NCBI RefSeq assembly: GCF_013166655.1
Contig: NZ_JABKCA010000002.1
Span: forward strand, 1 to 64,000
Source of the DNA: Lentimicrobium sp. L6
GTDB lineage: Bacteria; Bacteroidota; Bacteroidia; Bacteroidales; UBA12170
Reading direction: 5' to 3'
DNA length: 64,000 bases
How positions within the stretch are numbered: position 1 is the first letter of the stretch; each line of letters opens with the position of its first letter. Positions 25,568-36,055 of the stretch are shown piece after piece. Below the pieces are notes generated by a model. The model saw nothing but the letters and a program-made list of their open reading frames with translations, made no database searches and was not told the origin of the DNA. The translations under genes and the position numbers were made by a program.

Positions 25568-26731
25568 TCAAGCGCGTTTTCTAGCCCAAATAAATATACT
25601 TAAAATGAAACCTAGAAAAACGGAAACTAATAAAACACTAAAACTAATCTGAAGCCCAAAATGCTCTGCTAAAAATCCAAGAACAACAGGCCCAGTTAAA
25701 AAGCCTACATAGCCTACGCCAGCCATAAAAGCGATACCGCTGGCGGGATTTACTCCTTCAATATTTGCAGAGAGACGGTATACTTCGGGTACAATGATGG
25801 AGAAGCCTAATCCAACGGTGAAGAATCCAACAATACTAACTAGGGGATGGCCTAATAAAACCAATGAAAAACCTATTAAAGCTAGAACGTATCCAGCAAG
25901 AATAATTTGCCATGCTCCAAATTTTGAACTCAGATAGTCACCGCTAAAACGTCCGATGGTCATGGCCAATGAAAATCCTGCATAACCAAGCCCTAGGTAA
26001 TTCATATTGGTCTTGGCGATGTCTTTTAAATATAAGCCGCTCCAGTCGGCAATGGCGCCTTCCGATACCATTCCTATAATGGCAATGGCTCCAATAAGCC
26101 ACAGCGTTTTGTTTTTGATGGCGCTTCTTGTTGGGGCACTTTCGGTCTCCTGTGTTTTATTAACGATGTGAAAGTATTTCTTTTTGAAGAGAATTTGAAG
26201 GAGTATGACACTAGCTAAAGCCAGAAGAATATGTAAAAGTGGATTATTGAGCAGGACAATAATAATGGTCCCAAAGCCAGCAGATATCATTGCACCTAGG
26301 CTGAAGAATCCATGGCAAGTGGACATGATATTTATTTGTCTTTCTCTTTCAACGGTGGCAACTAAGGAGTTGATGGCAACTTGCATGATACCAGAACTGA
26401 TTCCAAATAGATACATGGTAAAACAAAGCCAATAAAAGGATGGGGAGATAAATAAGGTGCTGATAAAAATAGCAACCATTAAAATGCTTATTAAAGACGA
26501 TTTACCTTCCCCAATTGATGTCACAATCTTTTTTCCAAATGGAAGAGAGGATACCGAACCAAATGCAGCAAAGAACAAGGCGATTCCCAACTGTCCTTCA
26601 TTCATATTTAGCTTTTCGATGATGCTTGGGATATAGATAACCCATGTACCAAACATAATACTGAGAGATAGGTATAATTGCGCAAAAGGAAATATCTCTA
26701 GCTTTTCTTTAATATTAAATTTGAGCTTCAT
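25568..26731 (-). CDS. Major facilitator superfamily transporter
   Basis: A 387-residue polytopic membrane protein with about twelve hydrophobic segments and a cytoplasmic loop near the middle (KKKYFHIVNKTQE region, about 185-205). This is the two times six helix layout of the MFS. Motifs such as FAAFGSVSSLPFGKK and GYAGFSLAMTIGRFSGDYL fit the loop 2-3 and loop 8-9 signatures. It resembles YbjJ/FucP-type members, but the substrate cannot be told from sequence. It stands alone between the Bat operon and the B12 operon; co-transcription with either is not evident. Confidence 0.8.
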   Translation of the reverse strand: MKLKFNIKEKLEIFPFAQLYLSLSIMFGTWVIYIPSIIEKLNMNEGQLGIALFFAAFGSVSSLPFGKKIVTSIGEGKSSLISILMVAIFISTLFISPSFYWLCFTMYLFGISSGIMQVAINSLVATVERERQINIMSTCHGFFSLGAMISAGFGTIIIVLLNNPLLHILLALASVILLQILFKKKYFHIVNKTQETESAPTRSAIKNKTLWLIGAIAIIGMVSEGAIADWSGLYLKDIAKTNMNYLGLGYAGFSLAMTIGRFSGDYLSSKFGAWQIILAGYVLALIGFSLVLLGHPLVSIVGFFTVGLGFSIIVPEVYRLSANIEGVNPASGIAFMAGVGYVGFLTGPVVLGFLAEHFGLQISFSVLLVSVFLGFILSIFIWARKRA

Positions 26732-26805: not shown

Positions 26806-27900
26806 TTATTCCATCTTAAAACAAAAACTTCCAGGGTTCACGCCAGCTTTAAAAGAATCCAACAGATGACCTTGAGGATGGTATCTATAAATAATTCCGT
26901 TTTGTTGATAATCTATGGCATCTGCAATATAAACTTGTGAAGAGGTGGGGTGGATGGACAAGCCATAAAAGCCTCCATAAACTCCAGTATAACTACTTTC
27001 TACAAAAGGGACTTCTGGAAACTGAGGCTCCTCTGTGGTCATTCTAAATACATGGCGATTGATGAAGTAAAGCGTGTCTTGGCTTCCATTAATACATAAT
27101 TCGGAAGGGTTGTCTTCTAAATCAAATCGAAAAAGCTTTTCGATTTCTAAGCTTTGAGCATCAATTTTTACTAGAGCTGGCCTTTCGTGTGCATAAGGAC
27201 TTTCGGCATATCCACCATCGCATAAAACCCAGATTTTATTATTCTTGTCCATCACCATGCTACTGGGTTGAGCCGGAACTTCTATGGAATCTATAACTTG
27301 ATCAGTATTGCTATCGATAACTAAAATTTGATTATCAAAAGACCAACAATTCGTAAAAACCAAATTCTCATATTGAATCATTTGTTCGGTACTGTGTTGG
27401 TAGTAATTAGGATTATTGTTGTTCACATCAATGCTGCCAGTTTTCTTATAAGTACTAGGATTAACAATAGTGATGGCTTTGGCATGTAAATCTGTAATGT
27501 AAGCTTTTTGGTCGTTGAGAAAGTGAATATAACGAGGAGAGTTTAAACCAGTAATGCTAGCTGTAAACTCTAAAGTATTAGCATCCGCAACATATACCTT
27601 ACCGCTATTGTTGACTACGATAAAGGCTTGTCCGTTATGAATTTCCATAGATTGAACTACATCTCCTAAAGGAGCTGAGTTTCTAGCATAAAAAATGTGA
27701 TTATAAATCCGTTTTTTCTCAATATCATAAAAACTCAAAGAGGCATTTCCATACATGAAATTTCCTTCGTTTGTAATAAATACTCCAGATGTATTATTTA
27801 ATTTGAAATAAATGGTTTCTACTGGTTCCTTTTGACATGAGGTTGTAAGAAGGTAAATAGATAAAAATAAAAAGAGGTTTATAATTGAATCAATTTTCAT
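26806..27900 (-). CDS. BtuG-like surface beta-propeller lipoprotein (cobamide binding)
   Basis: A 364-residue lipoprotein: a short signal peptide ends in the lipobox TTSC with Cys22, followed by a YncE/DUF5074-type beta-propeller (blades such as GKVYVADANTLEFTASI, ITIVNPSTYKKTGSI and ILVIDSNTDQVIDSI). In Bacteroides, BtuG is a surface-exposed propeller lipoprotein that captures cobalamin and hands it to BtuB. Third place in a riboswitch-led operon just after a BtuB-type receptor gene makes the same role likely here. The reading frame is open upstream to 28278, but that part is translated repeat sequence without domain; ATG 27900 gives a proper lipoprotein signal. The gap of 361 bases to the receptor gene is filled by palindromic repeats. 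Confidence 0.8.
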   Translation of the reverse strand: MKIDSIINLFLFLSIYLLTTSCQKEPVETIYFKLNNTSGVFITNEGNFMYGNASLSFYDIEKKRIYNHIFYARNSAPLGDVVQSMEIHNGQAFIVVNNSGKVYVADANTLEFTASITGLNSPRYIHFLNDQKAYITDLHAKAITIVNPSTYKKTGSIDVNNNNPNYYQHSTEQMIQYENLVFTNCWSFDNQILVIDSNTDQVIDSIEVPAQPSSMVMDKNNKIWVLCDGGYAESPYAHERPALVKIDAQSLEIEKLFRFDLEDNPSELCINGSQDTLYFINRHVFRMTTEEPQFPEVPFVESSYTGVYGGFYGLSIHPTSSQVYIADAIDYQQNGIIYRYHPQGHLLDSFKAGVNPGSFCFKME

Positions 27901-27908
27901 CTTTTTTA

Positions 27909-28230
27909 CCCCGGCCCCAAGGGGAGAAAGCTGAAAATTGCTGAGGTTTTTTAAACTGATTAAAGAGTATGATGTTAAACTTAATAATTGAAAAATAATA
28001 TTTTTAAAACCAGATGCTTTTTCGCTCCCCTTGGGGTTGGGGCAATCGAAAAAGAAGCTTCTCGCTGAATCATTTTTAATTGGTTTTGCCCCGACCCAGA
28101 TGGGAGCCCAATTAAAAATAGATTGCCTATTAAGAAAGGAATGAATAGGTCCATCTTCACCAATGAGAATAGGATTACTTATATCAGATGCTTTTTTGCT
28201 CCCCGTGGGGTTAGGGAAAACAAAAAAGAA
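27909..28230. repeat. Cluster of four REP-like palindromic repeats in alternating orientation
   Basis: Four copies of a short G/C-rich palindromic unit of the type CTCCCCtTGGGGttGGGGc lie at 27909-27926 (reverse), 28025-28043 (forward), 28088-28107 (reverse) and 28198-28216 (forward). The two forward copies sit inside a 46-bp direct repeat (28011-28056 and 28185-28230) that begins CAGATGC plus a T run and ends in an A-rich AAAGAA stretch; the two copies differ at only a few positions. They form two inverted pairs, like bacterial interspersed mosaic elements, inside the untranslated spacer between the receptor and the BtuG-like gene. Confidence 0.7.
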
Positions 28231-28261
28231 TTTTGAAATGTTACTTATTCTAAACTTCATA

Positions 28262-30307
28262 CTATTTCCTCCATCCAATTTGTAAATTTACTGAATAATA
28301 TCTTCCGGGCATTGCACGCCATAATACAGTCATATAGTCTCTGTCAAAGATGTTCTCAACTCTAATACCAAATCTGGCTTTGAGCTTTTTCCAATTAAAT
28401 CCTTTTTCAAAGCTAAGATTTGTTAAAGAATAAGCTAAAAGAGGTTTTTCAAAATCTGATAATTCGTTAGAGCTGGTGGTATACCTTTTTCCAATGATGG
28501 AATTGTCAATGTTTAGTTCCCAAGATTTGTAATTCACTCCTATCATTAAATTAGCGGTATGACGAGGAATATAGATTAATTGTTTTCCTCTGCTTTCATC
28601 AACAGATTCTACAGCATTTTCATTGGTGGTTATGGTAAGGGCGTAATTGGCAATGGTTTTTAGTTTCCAATTTCTATAGAAATCCATATTGTATTTTAAA
28701 GTGCATTCGACTCCTCGGGCAAAAACTTTCTTAATATTATCTGCTTCCCAATAAATGGCACCGGTGGAAGAGGGATGCCAAACTATCCAATTTTCAATTA
28801 TAGAAGCATAGATATTGATGTTTGATTCTAAATTCCAATTGTTTTTGGCTTGTTTAAAACCTAAACCCAGTTCTGCGGTATACCCGTCTTCGGGAAGTAG
28901 GTCTGGGTTTCCGCCAGGAATCCAGTATAAGTCGTTAAGGTTAGGTTTGTGGTAATTTCGACTGGCATTAAATTTTATGCTCCAAATATCTTTTTGGTCC
29001 AATTGATATTCAATACCCAATGATGGAATGAGAAAAACGAAAGTATCATCATAATATTCGCTTCGGAGGAGGGCATAAGCTGATGTTCTTTCGTTGATTT
29101 GAAGATTGAGCTGTGCCAGATAACTCAACTCTACTCGTTCTTCCTTATATCCCGTTTTTTTGGTAGAATCATAAATATCTACTTGGTGAAAATTTGCATC
29201 CAAAGAGGTTTTAAAGTGTAGAGACTCCTCTTCTTTATATTGATATTCCAAGTGGTTAAAACTAGATTTTTCTTTACTTATTGAATTGAAATTATTATCT
29301 AATTCTGTTGATTTTCGAAAATAATGCAATTTTGTATAGTTGATACCACTTGTGAATTCCCATCTTGAATCTCCTATGTAGTATTTCCAAGCTCCAATAG
29401 CTCTTAGTTGCTCATCTTCTCGATATTCTATTCTGTTGAATATTTGATAATCCACACTGTCAGGTGTTTGAATCTCTTCGATGTTATAGCCTTCGTAAGA
29501 CATGAGCTGAGGAAGATTTCTGAAATTATGATGGCCCCAGATTTTTAAAGAGAGCAAATGATTTTTCTTCAATTTCCCATAAAACTCTTGTAGGAAACCA
29601 TATTTCTCATAATCCGCATTTTTCTGGACATCGTCTCTGTATGGAAGTACTCCATAGTTGTAGAATGGAAAGTCGTTCTCTGATTGGTCGTGAAAAACTC
29701 TAGTTTTCGATTGAAACTTAGAGTTCCCCAAGGCCAATTCTGCAAATTCTTTAAAAGTAGAAAAGCTCTCTATATGTTGAATGTATTTTACTGAAATTCG
29801 ATTACTCCAATCTGCTTTGTTTTCAAGACTAATACTTCCTCCTAAGGCACCACTTCCAGCACTTAAAGAGCTTCCGCCATGAAGCAATTCTACTCTATCG
29901 ATAAAATAAACAGGAAACTGAGAGAAATCTACATCGCCCCGCATGGGTGAGTTGAGACTCATTCCATTCCAATTGACTTGAGTATGAGAAGCTGCCGTTC
30001 CGCGAAAAGAAGCGGTGGCGGAGGAGCCTCTTCCATAAGATTTTATGAATACTGGAGTGCTGGCCGTCATGAGGCTCGATAGAGATTTTGAGCTCAAGCT
30101 TTGTAAAGCCATGGTGTCTATCCTCGATTTGCTCATGGCTACTTCTTCAATGGGTTTTTGAGCTTTAACTTCTACTGTTTTTAATTGAAAAGTATCCTTG
30201 GTGATTTGAGCATTGATATTTTGACTCCAAAAAAGAGAGACAGAAAGAAAAGCAAAAATTTTAAAGAATAGTCTTCTATTATAAGCTGTGATATTTATTA
30301 TTTTCAA
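28262..30307 (-). CDS. btuB: BtuB-type TonB-dependent vitamin B12 receptor
   Basis: A 681-residue outer-membrane receptor. A signal peptide (about 1-33, ending NINAQ) and a probable TonB box (LKTVEVKAQ) precede a plug domain (about 45-155: RGSSATASFRGTAASHTQVNWNG, VELLHGGSSLSAGSGALGG) and a 22-strand-type barrel ending YSVNLQIGWRK. The cobalamin riboswitch at the head of the operon and the BtuG-like gene after it point to cobalamin or cobamide uptake. No ATG precedes the signal peptide within a sensible distance; a TTG at 30307 gives a normal signal peptide. An ATG at 30490 would add 61 residues encoded by repeat-like sequence. Gap to the first gene of the operon: 182 bases. Confidence 0.82.
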   Translation of the reverse strand: MKIINITAYNRRLFFKIFAFLSVSLFWSQNINAQITKDTFQLKTVEVKAQKPIEEVAMSKSRIDTMALQSLSSKSLSSLMTASTPVFIKSYGRGSSATASFRGTAASHTQVNWNGMSLNSPMRGDVDFSQFPVYFIDRVELLHGGSSLSAGSGALGGSISLENKADWSNRISVKYIQHIESFSTFKEFAELALGNSKFQSKTRVFHDQSENDFPFYNYGVLPYRDDVQKNADYEKYGFLQEFYGKLKKNHLLSLKIWGHHNFRNLPQLMSYEGYNIEEIQTPDSVDYQIFNRIEYREDEQLRAIGAWKYYIGDSRWEFTSGINYTKLHYFRKSTELDNNFNSISKEKSSFNHLEYQYKEEESLHFKTSLDANFHQVDIYDSTKKTGYKEERVELSYLAQLNLQINERTSAYALLRSEYYDDTFVFLIPSLGIEYQLDQKDIWSIKFNASRNYHKPNLNDLYWIPGGNPDLLPEDGYTAELGLGFKQAKNNWNLESNINIYASIIENWIVWHPSSTGAIYWEADNIKKVFARGVECTLKYNMDFYRNWKLKTIANYALTITTNENAVESVDESRGKQLIYIPRHTANLMIGVNYKSWELNIDNSIIGKRYTTSSNELSDFEKPLLAYSLTNLSFEKGFNWKKLKARFGIRVENIFDRDYMTVLWRAMPGRYYSVNLQIGWRK

Positions 30308-30420
30308 AGCAGAGGTATTGGTATAATCTAATCTTTCAATGGGGTGGATTTCAACAATAATAAATGAGAATAATTCTGTGCAAATATAAATAATCTTCTT
30401 TGTGAAACTCTGTATAATAG

Positions 30421-30465
30421 CTTTGCCACGAAGAAACACAAAGGATTTCGCAAAGTGCCACCAAG
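30421..30465 (-). repeat. Interspersed repeat, TTTGTGGC type, copy 1
   Basis: A stretch of about 45 bp made of repeated CTTTGTG/GTGGC words, reading on the minus strand GGTGGCACTTTGCG and then ATCCTTTGTGTTTC. It matches, with substitutions and one indel, a plus-strand copy at 42800-42843. It lies in the untranslated gap before btuB. Confidence 0.55.
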
Positions 30466-30489
30466 AATGAAGAAGTGTTTGCCCAGCCA

Positions 30490-32913
30490 TTATCTTTTGA
30501 TGATGGTTTTGGAGAAGGAATTACCTTTGCTATAAACTTGAATTAAATAGACTCCGCTCTTAAGTTCTCCCAGATTTACTCGTTTTGCCTCTTTTACCTC
30601 TTTTACCAATTGACCTTGATGATTATAGATTTTCAGAAGATCAATATCATTGTTTTCTGAGGATTCTATATGGATAAGATCCTCAAAAGGATTGGGGTAA
30701 ATAGTAAAATGGAGTGGATTGAGTTCTTCAATTCCAGTGGCATCGGAAATAATGATTTGTGCTTTATGTGCTCCTATGGAAATTAGGTGTTGACCAAGGA
30801 TGTTGATGCTAAACTCAGCTTCTCCATCAGAATTAGTTGAGACTTGTTGACCGTCATTGACCAAGCTTTCTTCATTTAATGATAGCAATGCATTTGCAAT
30901 GGGCTTTCTTTCCAATAATTCTACAATTCCTGATTCATAGAATTGACACCGCTCTTCCATGAAATGAGTTGTAATGAGTTCGTCAGGTTTTGAGGTGTAG
31001 GTGCTTAGTGTTATTTGATTGATGGTCCATTCCTCTCTGGAATCTGGCACATGATAGATTAGAATTTCATCTTCATCTTGTATTTCGATTTGATGCATAT
31101 TCCTAGCAAAATGATCATCATTTAGTTTTATAATCCATGTTCTGGATTTACTATCGTCGCTATGGTTTCCACCGTAGCCATAGTAGTAATTTAAACTTGA
31201 ATGTTCTTCTTCTGGAACTTTCCATAAGTAAAGAGCGCCATCTACTATTTCGTCGTCCTTAAATTTAAAATCCTCTCCAAGTCCAGTGCTTTCAAAAATA
31301 GAAGCTATGGCATGGGCTAGACTTATATTTTCTACACTACCGATTCCGTAATCTTGAGCTGCATTATCTACATAAGGGTTAAGGTCAAAATGGTCAATAT
31401 TAACTGCTTGCCGAGAAAGTATATTATGGTCATCGGTTTGGATAGTGATATATACCTTCTTACTGTGGCTTTCTGCTAATATTTGTATGGCTAATGAATC
31501 AATAATTTGAGGAAAACCTTCAGCCTGAGCATAGATATAGGTATTACCCTCCTCTAATCCTTTGATATAGGTTTCATTGTTTCTTTCAAAGATTTCTAAT
31601 AATTCGGGATTTTTAGCATGCCATAGTGTTTCTAATCCTAAAATAGCTTCGTTATTTTGATCTTTAATGATAGCATTTATTTCAATTTGACTTTGTGAAT
31701 GAATGCTCTGTGATTCTAATATGATTTCGATGGAGGAGGGCTCCGAAACGAGAATCTCGAAACTATTCGAAATATACTCCTGATTTTGAACTTTTGCAGT
31801 GATAATGGTAAGGCCAGCTTGATGAGTCTGAATGAGTCCATTGGCATCTACTGTGGCGATATTGGTATTTGAGGAGTTCCAAATGATATTTTGACTTGCT
31901 GCCGGAATACCAGAAATAAAATGAATGGCTTCTGCTTGTAAGCTCCTGTTTATTGTTATTGTTTTTGGCATATCCGACAAGGCTAATAAATTGATCTCCC
32001 CAGTGATAGCGCTATTAGGGCTGACGTCTATAATACCGGAAATCTCAGTGGAAGCTTCCCCCAATCCTCCCATGGAAGTATTCATGGCATTGGTGATTTT
32101 AATAAAATCTATATGGTCAAGCGCTACTCTGTTTCCATTTTCATCTCTGGCCCAACTGATATCCATGGCATCGCCACCTGAATTTTCTAAGTCGCTGGTA
32201 TAAGGATTATCAGGAATGTCATAGGGTTGGCTGCCTCTGGTTCTGTTATCTGCAAAGCCAAAGTATCTTTCGTAAGATTTTATCATGGATGGAGTGGAGA
32301 GGTCAATATCACCTTCAACTTTCATGCCTTGTAGAGTGTAAAGTTCTTGGTTTATACTAGGGAATAAGATCGGAGATGGGTAATAGCTTTGTTGGTGGAA
32401 ACTGTTTTTATAAACGTATCCAGAATCTTGATTGCTGTCCACCCAAAGTACATCGGTAGCTGAGTTTTCATTGGGATTGAAATAAGTGACAGCATAATCC
32501 ATTTGACTTTGGTTCAAATAATAGTCGCTCCCTGCCAAAAGATACCATTGGTCATCAGCCAGTCCATTATTATTCTCATCTTTCATGACTTCTACCATTG
32601 CTGCTTCGCTCCAATCAGGCAAAGCATTGGTGAATATGGTAAAATCAATTCCAAATGGATTGTTGGGATGGTTTTCTACACTTTCTTCCATTTTTACAAT
32701 AATATGACCGCCAAATGCGCCCAAAGAAACCAATCCGCTTGTTCCTCCAATAATGCTTTGTGCAGCATACGGAGAGCCAAATGCACCATCGTTAGTAAAT
32801 TGTCCTGGAGCAGGTTTGTAATCAATAATTTCCGACACATACTGTGCCTGACCCAGCAAGTTAAAGCTGAATAGGAGGATTAGAGTTGCAAATTTAATAA
32901 TTGACTGGCTCAT
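30490..32913 (-). CDS. T9SS-exported surface protein of the B12 operon, possible cobamide-binding protein
   Basis: An 807-residue secreted protein, first gene behind the cobalamin riboswitch. Visible parts: signal peptide (1-23); a cell-surface domain (about 24-300) with YKPAPGQF, SLGAFGGHIIV and VMKDENNNGLADDQWYLLAGS; a Big_2-type Ig domain (about 310-390, WNSSNTNIATVDANGL); a second Ig-like stretch (about 395-480); a domain (about 485-635) with the look of DUF4430, the fold of the transcobalamin C-terminal domain; a short beta stretch; and a type IX sorting domain (about 735-807, TIYPNPFEDLIHI). The domain reading at 485-635 is uncertain. Position and regulation suggest capture of cobamides at the cell surface; this is inference, not shown. 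Confidence 0.7.
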   Translation of the reverse strand: MSQSIIKFATLILLFSFNLLGQAQYVSEIIDYKPAPGQFTNDGAFGSPYAAQSIIGGTSGLVSLGAFGGHIIVKMEESVENHPNNPFGIDFTIFTNALPDWSEAAMVEVMKDENNNGLADDQWYLLAGSDYYLNQSQMDYAVTYFNPNENSATDVLWVDSNQDSGYVYKNSFHQQSYYPSPILFPSINQELYTLQGMKVEGDIDLSTPSMIKSYERYFGFADNRTRGSQPYDIPDNPYTSDLENSGGDAMDISWARDENGNRVALDHIDFIKITNAMNTSMGGLGEASTEISGIIDVSPNSAITGEINLLALSDMPKTITINRSLQAEAIHFISGIPAASQNIIWNSSNTNIATVDANGLIQTHQAGLTIITAKVQNQEYISNSFEILVSEPSSIEIILESQSIHSQSQIEINAIIKDQNNEAILGLETLWHAKNPELLEIFERNNETYIKGLEEGNTYIYAQAEGFPQIIDSLAIQILAESHSKKVYITIQTDDHNILSRQAVNIDHFDLNPYVDNAAQDYGIGSVENISLAHAIASIFESTGLGEDFKFKDDEIVDGALYLWKVPEEEHSSLNYYYGYGGNHSDDSKSRTWIIKLNDDHFARNMHQIEIQDEDEILIYHVPDSREEWTINQITLSTYTSKPDELITTHFMEERCQFYESGIVELLERKPIANALLSLNEESLVNDGQQVSTNSDGEAEFSINILGQHLISIGAHKAQIIISDATGIEELNPLHFTIYPNPFEDLIHIESSENNDIDLLKIYNHQGQLVKEVKEAKRVNLGELKSGVYLIQVYSKGNSFSKTIIKR

Positions 32914-33050
32914 TTTATTGTTTATTTATTTCGCAAAAACAGTAGAAACTGAAAAAGATGAGGGCAGGCTTTGAAGGAAGCAATCGGCTAGTGTAGGAAA
33001 CCAGCAGATGATTAGCTTTTTCACCGAAAGCACTCAAATCTTTATCTGTT

Positions 33051-33195
33051 GGCAGGTCTTCTGACTTACTCCATTCTGTGGAAGCCTTCCCGGTTGCGAA
33101 CCAGTGGCATATTTTCCACGAAATATATGGAGCTTACAGCAGCGGGAACTGTTCAGGATTTACACCTGATTCCCTATTAATCCGATAATACCATT
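33051..33195 (-). ncRNA. Cobalamin riboswitch
   Basis: On the minus strand the leader contains the B12-box core (33174-33137): GGGAATCAGGTG, then AAATCCTGAACAG, then TTCCCGCTGCTGTAA. It is followed by CCACTGG and CCGGGAAGG segments, and closes with the conserved AGTCAGAAGACCTGCC (33066-33051), which pairs back to the 5' GGT. These are the invariant blocks of the adenosyl/hydroxocobalamin riboswitch. The aptamer ends about 140 bases before the ATG of the 807-residue protein. Binding of cobalamin is expected to switch the operon off. Confidence 0.93.
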
Positions 33196-33201
33196 TTAAC
33201 G

Positions 33202-33245
33202 ATATGGAATTTCATAAAGTCAAATTGGTATAAGCTGGAACCAAT
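33202..33245 (-). other. 5' hairpin of the riboswitch leader
   Basis: An 8-bp perfect inverted repeat (AAATTGGT and ACCAATTT on the minus strand, about 33247-33222) lies between the promoter and the riboswitch aptamer. It may protect the 5' end or be part of an extended aptamer; its role is unknown. Confidence 0.35.
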
Positions 33246-33252
33246 TTCGCTG

Positions 33253-33260
33253 CAAAAGTA
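33253..33260 (-). promoter_or_regulatory. -7 box of the B12 operon promoter
   Basis: TACTTTTG on the minus strand matches TAnnTTTG fully and is followed by GCAG. Transcription would start near 33247, about 50 bases before the riboswitch aptamer. Confidence 0.55.
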
Positions 33261-33341: not shown

Positions 33342-34625
33342 TTATTTGTATTTCTGATCTATCATGAATTTAGCATCAAGATATAACATAGAATCTACTG
33401 TGATTCCTCTAGATTTTGCTTTTTCTTGGATTTTTTCAAACCATTTTTTATCAGATTGAATCTGTTTCATCATGGCTCTAATGTCTTTCTCCAAGTTTAT
33501 GTAATTTTGACTTGCATGTTCAAAAGATTCGATAAAACCAAAGGGGAATCTGTCAAGGTTCGCTTCAGTGGTGAAAAGCAGCAGGATGTCAGCTTTTCTT
33601 ATTGCTTCGGAATAATTGATATTCTTTACTTCATCTGTCATCTGTAGTTTGTCGATAAAAATCTGTTGATTATAATACCAAAACTCACCATGACTAAATG
33701 CCTTTTGATGAATACCTAAACGATATAATTGCCAGAAAAAACTATCTGCAATACTTATTACTTTAGGCTTATAAGCCGATTCATCTTTAAAGCTTATTTG
33801 GGGATAGGTCATTAATGGAATAGGAACAGGTAGGCCTAAGTTTAAAGCTTTTTCAATGTCGCTATCTTGTTTGTCAGCAATAAAAGACTTGCTAATATCG
33901 TCAATTTGAACATCAACTAAGTTCTTATTCAAAACCAATTCCATTTTTCTGAGGATTGAATCAACTATCAGAGGCATGCTTCCTTGACTCCAATGAATTC
34001 CTGTTTTTGGATAAAGAACTATTTCAGAGCCATCTTTCATATTTAAGAAAGCAGCATTAAAATCGATAAATGGAATATTGGACTTAGTTAAGATAGAAGT
34101 ATAAACTTCATAATTTGTGATGCTTCTTTCTTTGTTCATGGAATCAGGAATGAATTCAGGATAAAAGAAACCCTTTCCTGGTGCAATTACTATTATTAAT
34201 TGGGTTTGATGCTTCTTTAATTCTTCTTGAATAGCTAATAGTTTATTAATTCTAGAATTAATTTTCTTTTCACCTATAAAATTAGTTCCAAAATAGGAGT
34301 CGATATATTGTTGTTCATATAGATAGTCGTTCTTTCCAATGATTACGTTTTGAGCACTTACTTTATTGAATAAACTATATTGCAGTTGATTATAAAGCCT
34401 TACAAACGAACTCCTAAAGCCAAAATGGTCATTAAAGAAGGTATCATATTTATTTTGGAATTCCCCAGAAAACCAATCTTGAATTATAAACACTGGTTTT
34501 TGCTTGAGGGTATAGCTTCCTTCTAGAGGCTTAACAAAAACCTTTTGAGTATAATACTGCAAAAGAGGAAGCGTTAAAGCTAAAATGATGATGATAATTC
34601 CTATATTTTTCGTCTTGTTTTTCAT
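33342..34625 (-). CDS. AlgX/AlgJ-like SGNH-type O-acetyl transfer protein
   Basis: A 427-residue protein with one N-terminal signal anchor (about 8-28) and a periplasmic SGNH-hydrolase-like domain of the alginate O-acetyltransferase AlgX/AlgJ group. Visible motifs are DHFGFR near residue 65, IVIAPGKGFFYPE, the Asp/His box TGIHWS and the Ser-containing block IADSFF. Such proteins move acetyl groups onto extracellular polysaccharide or wall sugars, fed by an MBOAT membrane partner. The partner gene is directly upstream, with a one-base TAATG overlap. The polymer that is modified cannot be told; no polysaccharide synthesis genes are adjacent. Confidence 0.75.
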   Translation of the reverse strand: MKNKTKNIGIIIIILALTLPLLQYYTQKVFVKPLEGSYTLKQKPVFIIQDWFSGEFQNKYDTFFNDHFGFRSSFVRLYNQLQYSLFNKVSAQNVIIGKNDYLYEQQYIDSYFGTNFIGEKKINSRINKLLAIQEELKKHQTQLIIVIAPGKGFFYPEFIPDSMNKERSITNYEVYTSILTKSNIPFIDFNAAFLNMKDGSEIVLYPKTGIHWSQGSMPLIVDSILRKMELVLNKNLVDVQIDDISKSFIADKQDSDIEKALNLGLPVPIPLMTYPQISFKDESAYKPKVISIADSFFWQLYRLGIHQKAFSHGEFWYYNQQIFIDKLQMTDEVKNINYSEAIRKADILLLFTTEANLDRFPFGFIESFEHASQNYINLEKDIRAMMKQIQSDKKWFEKIQEKAKSRGITVDSMLYLDAKFMIDQKYK

Positions 34626-36055
34626 TAGAACCTAAAATATATAAATGGATTAAAATCACTGCTGGTGATGGCGCTAAGGCAGATGGCTAAGCTTAATATG
34701 GCTAGAATTATAGAAATGAAATACCTCGATGTACTGTATTGCTCAGAAAAGAATACTTTATTCTCCCATTTTTTGCCTGTTTTTAAGAGTGTAATAAACG
34801 AAAATAAGACTGCAATTACTAATATGAACCAAAATTCTGATGAGGTTTTTGTGGGGACTGAAAAGTCGAATTTAAATAAACTTCTTAAGAAATATTTTAT
34901 TTGATTAAAGCTCTCAGATCTAAATATAACCCAACCAATGATGGTTATAAAAAAAGTGAGAATGATACTTGGATATTTACCTACCTTTTTACTGAACTTA
35001 AGTAGGAATAGCTTATCAAGAATTAAGAAGAAGCCATGGAAAGCCCCCCAGATCACAAAATTCCATGCTGCACCATGCCAGAGACCAGAGATTAAAAATA
35101 CCAGCCAAAGATTAAAATAGAGTCTTTTTTTTGAGGATACTCTACTTCCCCCCAATGGAATATATAGATAATCGCGCATCCAACTTCCTAGGGTGATGTG
35201 CCATCTACGCCAAAATTCAGTTATGCTTTGTGAGGTATAGGGATTATTAAAGTTTTCAGGAAATTTGAAGCCCATGATTCTACCAAGTCCAATGGCCATA
35301 TCGGAATACCCAGAAAAGTCAAAATAGATTTGGAAGGTATAGGCTATTATTCCTATCCAGGCAGCTGAGCTTGTTAATTCTCCATCTGCCAAAGCAAAAG
35401 CTTGGTCGGCTTGTGCTCCTAATACATTAGCTATTAAAACTTTTTTCGCTAGCCCAATACAAAATCTAAAAAATCCCAATAACTTGTTGTCTAAGGTCTC
35501 TAAATGCTGGCGATTCTCTATCTGATCCGCAATTTGATTGAACCTCACAATAGGTCCTGCAATCATTTGAGGAAATAGCATAATATAAACTAGATATTGG
35601 ATGGGATTCTTAAGAGGTTTGTGAACACCTCTAAAGACATCGATAGAATAAGTTAGTGTTTGAAAAGTATAGAAAGAAATGCCTATGGGTAAGGCCACTT
35701 GTGTCCATTGGAGGTTCTCGAAACCCATAGAATGGAGGACGAAGTCCAAATTCTCCACAAAGAAGTTGGCATATTTAAAATAGAGTAGGAGGCCAACATT
35801 TATAGAAATGGATAATGCCAATAAGTATTTTCGATGTATTGAGTTAGGGGAGTGGTACATGTTATTGATGATATAATAATCAAGAATAACAGAACCTATA
35901 ACTACAAATACAAAAACGGGTGCCCCCCAAGCATAAAAGAAAATGCTAGCAAATAGGATGACCCAGTTTTTATAATTGTTGTTTTTGAAGAGGTGATATA
36001 ACAACAAAAAAACAGGTAGAAAGTATAAAAGGAATAGGCTGCTACTAAATACCAT
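34625..36055 (-). CDS. MBOAT family membrane O-acyltransferase (AlgI-like)
   Basis: A 476-residue membrane protein with roughly ten hydrophobic segments. It has the MBOAT signature: SGFSDMAIGLGRIMG, FNNPY with SITEFWRRWHITLGSWMRDYLYIPLGG, and the catalytic His327 in LWHGAAWNF. AlgI-like proteins pass acetyl groups across the inner membrane to periplasmic acetyltransferases. It is the first gene of a pair with the AlgX-like gene, sharing one base at the stop/start junction. Confidence 0.9.
   Translation of the reverse strand: MVFSSSLFLLYFLPVFLLLYHLFKNNNYKNWVILFASIFFYAWGAPVFVFVVIGSVILDYYIINNMYHSPNSIHRKYLLALSISINVGLLLYFKYANFFVENLDFVLHSMGFENLQWTQVALPIGISFYTFQTLTYSIDVFRGVHKPLKNPIQYLVYIMLFPQMIAGPIVRFNQIADQIENRQHLETLDNKLLGFFRFCIGLAKKVLIANVLGAQADQAFALADGELTSSAAWIGIIAYTFQIYFDFSGYSDMAIGLGRIMGFKFPENFNNPYTSQSITEFWRRWHITLGSWMRDYLYIPLGGSRVSSKKRLYFNLWLVFLISGLWHGAAWNFVIWGAFHGFFLILDKLFLLKFSKKVGKYPSIILTFFITIIGWVIFRSESFNQIKYFLRSLFKFDFSVPTKTSSEFWFILVIAVLFSFITLLKTGKKWENKVFFSEQYSTSRYFISIILAILSLAICLSAITSSDFNPFIYFRF

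Follow-up and report, generated by a model that had tools for sequence, protein, structure and literature searches.

Within a 64,000-nucleotide stretch of the genome of Lentimicrobium sp. L6 (contig NZ_JABKCA010000002.1, positions 1 to 64,000; hereafter the window), three genes preceded by a cobalamin riboswitch very probably constitute a riboswitch-controlled cobamide uptake operon of the order btuH–btuB–btuG, the first gene of which encodes a BtuH-domain protein with a sorting tail of the type IX secretion system (T9SS). The riboswitch, the BtuB, BtuG and BtuH-domain assignments, the T9SS tail and the conservation of the operon in other genomes were each observed by computation and are described below. 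All features given with window coordinates lie on the reverse strand.

The first-pass annotation of this DNA had proposed a complete cobalamin riboswitch at 33051–33195. Covariance-model searching with Rfam bears this out, as RF00174 matches over its full length (model positions 1–189) at 33207–33034 with 96.4 bits (gathering threshold 31.5; E = 8.7e-23), and this is the sole Rfam match in the whole 64-kb window. The leader between the aptamer and gene 1 (32914–33033) is presumed to be the expression platform, and the RNA of 32900–33246 folds into a structure more stable than those of 100 out of 100 shuffles (z −3.5). Upstream of the aptamer, the sequence TACTTTTG at 33260–33253 is a candidate Bacteroidota −7 promoter box, matching TAnnTTTG perfectly and fitting in position. 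As this motif is found 100 times in the window compared to 87 expected from shuffles, that is near chance, and as no clear −33 box is seen upstream of the candidate, the “good promoter” previously assigned here is plausible by its position only.

Downstream of the riboswitch follow reading frames of 807, 742 and 490 codons (30490–32913, 28262–30490 and 26806–28278), in agreement with the same-strand series of T9SS-tailed secreted protein, TonB receptor and propeller lipoprotein read there before. Gene 2 contains the Plug and barrel domains of TonB receptors (Pfam) and matches Bacteroides BtuB2 (8bmx_C) with an E-value of 1.3e-91 and two other Bacteroides BtuB entries with 1.4e-90, whereas BtuB1 is matched at 5.6e-20 and BtuB of E. 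coli at about 1e-9; its best NCBIfam model is TIGR01779 (TonB-B12), with a score under the equivalog cut-off of that model. A siderophore-type receptor was also considered and ruled out, the Bacteroides BtuB matches lying far above all others. Gene 3, encoding a seven-bladed propeller lipoprotein, matches the DUF5074 propeller of Pfam with 116.5 bits and BtuG2 (8bmx_D) with 3.4e-109. By homology, genes 2 and 3 are ordinary BtuB and BtuG, as the first-pass annotation had it. They resemble the BtuB2–BtuG2 and BtuB3–BtuG3 pairs of B. thetaiotaomicron (PMC10404256) in combining a receptor with a propeller lid, in their strong sequence matches and in their adjoining genes, and no important difference was found; btuH heads the operon here.

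The listed starts of both genes are probably wrong. A dispersed repeat with six genome matches (74–100% identity) fills 30375–30492 between gene 1 and btuB, and the signal peptide of the receptor, as read from the sequence, begins past it at the in-frame TTG 30307, which is therefore the probable start of btuB. Likewise, the lipoprotein signal MKIDSIINLFLFLSIYLLTTSCQKE of the propeller gene begins at ATG 27900, the probable start of btuG, and yields the lipobox LTTSC; two 63-nt direct repeats, 79% identical, are located between btuB and btuG (27994–28056 and 28168–28230). Both intergenic gaps of the operon are hence occupied by dispersed or direct repeats, and start calling was misled at both genes.

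The 807-residue product of gene 1 shows the order signal peptide, BtuH domain, Ig-like Big_2 domain, further Ig-like stretch, middle domain (residues 485–645) and T9SS domain. In phmmer searches, residues 24–297 match the BtuH2 chain 7biz_A with 3.7e-27 and the H-domain of BtuG1 (8blw_B) with 1e-33, and an AlphaFold2 model built from 14 proteins superposes on 7biz_A with Z 28.4 (2.3 Å over 253 residues) and on 8blw_B with Z 26.9. Homology thus extends across the ∼270-residue B12-binding domain by which the BtuH family has been defined (PMC8941943), and, as judged from these matches and the model, residues 22–298 (32020–32850) belong to the B12-binding domain family of BtuH. The lipoprotein anchor and C-terminal domain position of founding members, neither of which is part of the published definition, are absent from gene 1. 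Instead, its product begins with what reads as a plain signal peptide, terminating in GQAQ and lacking a lipobox, and residues 738–807 (30493–30702) form a T9SS type A sorting domain, scoring 49.2 bits with TIGR04183 (NCBIfam cut-off 23) and, in the model, Z 9.5 to the T9SS substrate C-terminal domains 8gl8_D and 8glk_D (RemZ and NucA, from structures that include the T9SS translocon); the type IX sorting domain assigned to the end of this protein at first reading is accordingly sound. The Big_2 domain spans residues 307–392 (31738–31995; Pfam 25.6 bits, Z 12 to Big_2 domains).

To assess cobamide binding, the B12 contacts of BtuH2 (PMC8941943) were mapped onto 91 aligned BtuH domains. Q333 and N399 are present in every non-gapped row, and H476 is absent from only three rows. 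Gene 1 keeps these contacts to phosphate, ribose and corrin as Q38, N96 and H173, and L578 as L284. In addition, an acidic loop (D112–N114–N116–D120) is invariant in ten diverse BtuH members; conserved calcium sites have been described for BtuH2 (PMC8941943). The gene 1 protein probably binds cobamides, perhaps with altered affinity.

The same arrangement was encountered repeatedly in other genomes. Our sample comprised the best 80 loci by likeness to gene 1 in a species-genome collection, which holds more, together with ten retrieved earlier. These 90 BtuH proteins divide into 26 with a T9SS tail, 46 lipoproteins and 18 in which a plain signal peptide goes with another, weak or truncated tail, classes that were assigned by a home-made tail profile and by reading N termini, in a sample biased to the type of the window, so that the fractions are not population estimates. 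TIGR04183, which is independent of the tail profile, was recovered in 14 of the 14 T9SS forms tested. A T9SS-tailed btuH lies beside a same-strand btuB in 24 out of 26 cases (btuB directly downstream in 19 and upstream in 5), and a cobalamin riboswitch was detected at 21 out of 25 scanned loci; of the four without a match, three begin 0.5–2.8 kb from a contig end. By these counts the T9SS-form btuH operon is a recurrent type in Bacteroidales. The earlier proposal of a T9SS-delivered third component of cobamide capture therefore holds in that the component is real and conserved beside btuB; it is not a new kind of component, being a BtuH as known from Bacteroides, nor is it peculiar to this organism. 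An unrelated T9SS protein merely located in the operon was considered for gene 1 and ruled out by the BtuH homology and the conserved synteny.

The two anchor types differ in domain order. Each of the 46 lipoprotein forms has a BtuH domain that ends at most 6 residues from the C terminus. Among the 26 T9SS forms, 23 have a BtuH match, by a profile that also covers part of the signal peptide, starting no more than 17 residues from the chosen start, and in every one of the 26 the match is followed by 77–837 residues. Lipoproteins are tethered through their N terminus, whereas T9SS type A proteins are tethered through their C-terminal end, so that the BtuH domain is placed away from the anchor in both designs. 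In a tree of these domains, most lipoprotein BtuH fall into one well-supported set (62 rows, support 99/96) and most T9SS forms outside it. A few T9SS forms (L042, L045 and L106) sit within the lipoprotein set, suggesting that the anchor changed more than once, in a tree that is unrooted and so gives no direction, and in which anchor labels are rough. Some BtuH proteins of gut Bacteroidales (L109, L125 and L095) have neither a lipid anchor nor a T9SS tail and end in a dockerin type I-like domain, which in L095 scores slightly under the Pfam cut-off.

These features are best explained by a model in which, at low intracellular cobamide, the riboswitch would leave the operon on, and protein 1 would use its signal peptide to pass the inner membrane and the T9SS to pass the outer one. 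Anchored at the cell surface through its C-terminal end, it would present the BtuH domain at its outer, N-terminal end; this domain would capture cobamides for transfer to BtuG, the lid of BtuB, and BtuB would import them with TonB energy.

Some observations weigh against this model. The full gene 1 structure model is of middling confidence (mean predicted local distance difference test score, pLDDT, 67); four BtuH2 contacts are altered in gene 1 (F401 to L, Y510 to M, W511 to I and W577 to G); and BtuH2 is not stably bound to BtuBG in Bacteroides (PMC8941943, PMC10404256), so that even there the hand-over is only a model. The replaced aromatic contacts, among them W577 to G, which within the T9SS forms is shared only with the closest congener, could mean that the BtuH domain of gene 1 no longer binds cobamide and that the protein is a B12-regulated adhesin or a binder of another ligand. 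The same four positions are, however, variable across the family, lipoprotein BtuH included, and the alignment near 510–511 is uncertain. As the three most conserved contacts are kept, and as gene 1 holds the sole BtuH domain of the genome, within a riboswitch–btuB–btuG operon, we consider a loss of binding highly improbable.

The proposed anchoring meets a different alternative. T9SS cargo may be anchored or released, both of which occur, and protein 1 might be released by the T9SS as a soluble or vesicle-borne, siderophore-like cobamide carrier to be retrieved by BtuB–BtuG. In Bacteroides, BtuJ provides a known case of vesicle-linked cobamide capture (PMC12751083), and BtuH2 was detected in both the supernatant and the membrane fraction (PMC8941943). 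On the other hand, a free carrier would have no need for a BtuH domain positioned away from the anchored end, as found in lipoprotein and T9SS forms alike. This flipped domain order is the best indication, albeit no more than a hint, that the gene 1 protein acts while held by the cell, and release is in our view rather unlikely.

The remaining part of protein 1, the middle domain at residues 485–645 (30979–31461), is conserved in five proteins of about 805 residues, from the window, two congeners and two Prolixibacteraceae. It may be related to the transcobalamin beta (beta-grasp) domain, i.e. DUF4430, known as a C-terminal domain of the B12 carriers of vertebrates (PMC4350170), in which case gene 1 would bear a second cobamide-binding domain supplementing the model above. 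Among the 50 best structure matches of a low-confidence separate model of residues 485–645, about 11 are transcobalamin, intrinsic factor or haptocorrin entries (Z 4.7–5.0 over 90–95 residues), and related genomes encode true DUF4430 proteins within their cobamide gene clusters, including one with a T9SS tail inside a btuB–btuG–btuH operon. However, this separate model is poor (pLDDT 43), and SUMO folds score as high or higher, the best matches at Z about 5 being SUMO folds tied with the three vertebrate carriers. Residues 485–645 have no Pfam match and no PDB sequence match, a four-row alignment for DUF4430 likewise gave no PDB sequence match, and hhalign to DUF4430 aligned the expected W..KLND...DEI segment with a probability of only 4.7%. 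A second binding domain of this kind appears unlikely. At locus L045 (6159–11678, order relative), a btuB and a btuG lipoprotein gene are followed by genes for a T9SS-tailed BtuH, a BtuG-like DUF5074 propeller whose tail weakly resembles that of T9SS substrates, and a T9SS-tailed protein combining DUF4430 with PQQ repeats.

Regarding the rest of the genome, a search limited to two components of the T9SS machinery identified SprA (590 bits) and PorV (422 bits). MetH and one FecCD permease are present and CobS was not found in the assembly, which is 96.5% complete; with MetH present and CobS not found, cobamide is needed and probably salvaged. At each of two paralogous loci (L036:8740–11017 and L037:3068–5174), a cobalamin riboswitch precedes an ATP-pyrophosphatase-like gene and one for a BtuF-like lipoprotein. 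A fourth cobalamin riboswitch of the same genome (L035:3028–4599, contig C46) precedes a gene for a 435-residue T9SS-tailed protein that reads as a propeller, with no Pfam propeller match and no PDB sequence match. Seven out of seven homologues of this protein in related genomes are also preceded by a cobalamin riboswitch, and within the genus it is found in exactly those genomes that have the window operon. This suggests a putative T9SS branch of the B12 regulon, any function of the 435-residue protein being a guess. Riboswitch-preceded, T9SS-tailed propeller-like proteins with an extra domain were also observed at L170 (FTFDDVQYWVGSGSKQALFVVDWNDG... in this protein), L173 and L174. In a broader reading, some Bacteroidales would possess a riboswitch-controlled set of T9SS-exported cobamide binders, here BtuH and, on another contig, the propeller-like protein, with two unrelated binding domains (BtuH and transcobalamin-like beta) on the 807-residue chain, a combination that we regard as quite improbable.

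In the surroundings of the operon, a major facilitator superfamily transporter gene (25568–26731; MFS_1, 90.7 bits) lies 74 bp downstream, has the same neighbour relation in congener L039 and possibly belongs to the operon. AlgX-like and MBOAT acyltransferase genes (33342–36055) immediately precede the riboswitch on its strand, and similar genes occupy the same place in both congeners (L038 and L039).

The closest known system is BtuH2 of B. thetaiotaomicron (BT_1956, PDB 7BIZ), a lipoprotein whose C-terminal domain binds B12 very tightly and whose gene supports growth at low B12 (PMC8941943). Gene 1 shares with it the sequence and predicted fold of the B12-binding domain, Ig-like accessory domains and a riboswitch-linked btuB–btuG setting, and differs in its plain signal peptide, its N-terminal BtuH domain, its C-terminal T9SS tail and the extra domain at 485–645, BtuH2 being a lipoprotein with a C-terminal BtuH domain. 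In BtuG1 of B. thetaiotaomicron (8BLW), too, a BtuH domain adds a binding site next to the BtuBG complex; there it is fused to the propeller lid, while gene 1 encodes it as part of a chain of its own with a T9SS tail. BtuJ and BtuK (PMC12751083) are comparable as riboswitch-linked accessory factors of cobamide capture at the surface, but both are lipoproteins, some vesicle-linked, and BtuJ has a DUF4465 fold. BtuH is thus already known as a B12 binder, and what appears to be new is its T9SS delivery and reversed domain order: no report joining the T9SS to BtuH, BtuG or cobalamin uptake was found in the open-access papers searched, and the word “secretion” is absent from the paper describing BtuH (PMC8941943).

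Overall, B12 capture in Bacteroidota has so far been studied through the lipoproteins of gut Bacteroides. If the T9SS route proposed here is true, the same binding module has been moved to a second, unrelated system of delivery and anchoring, with the domain order reversed and the module still facing away from the anchor, which would tie the T9SS to vitamin uptake and provide a testable case beyond the gut Bacteroides model.

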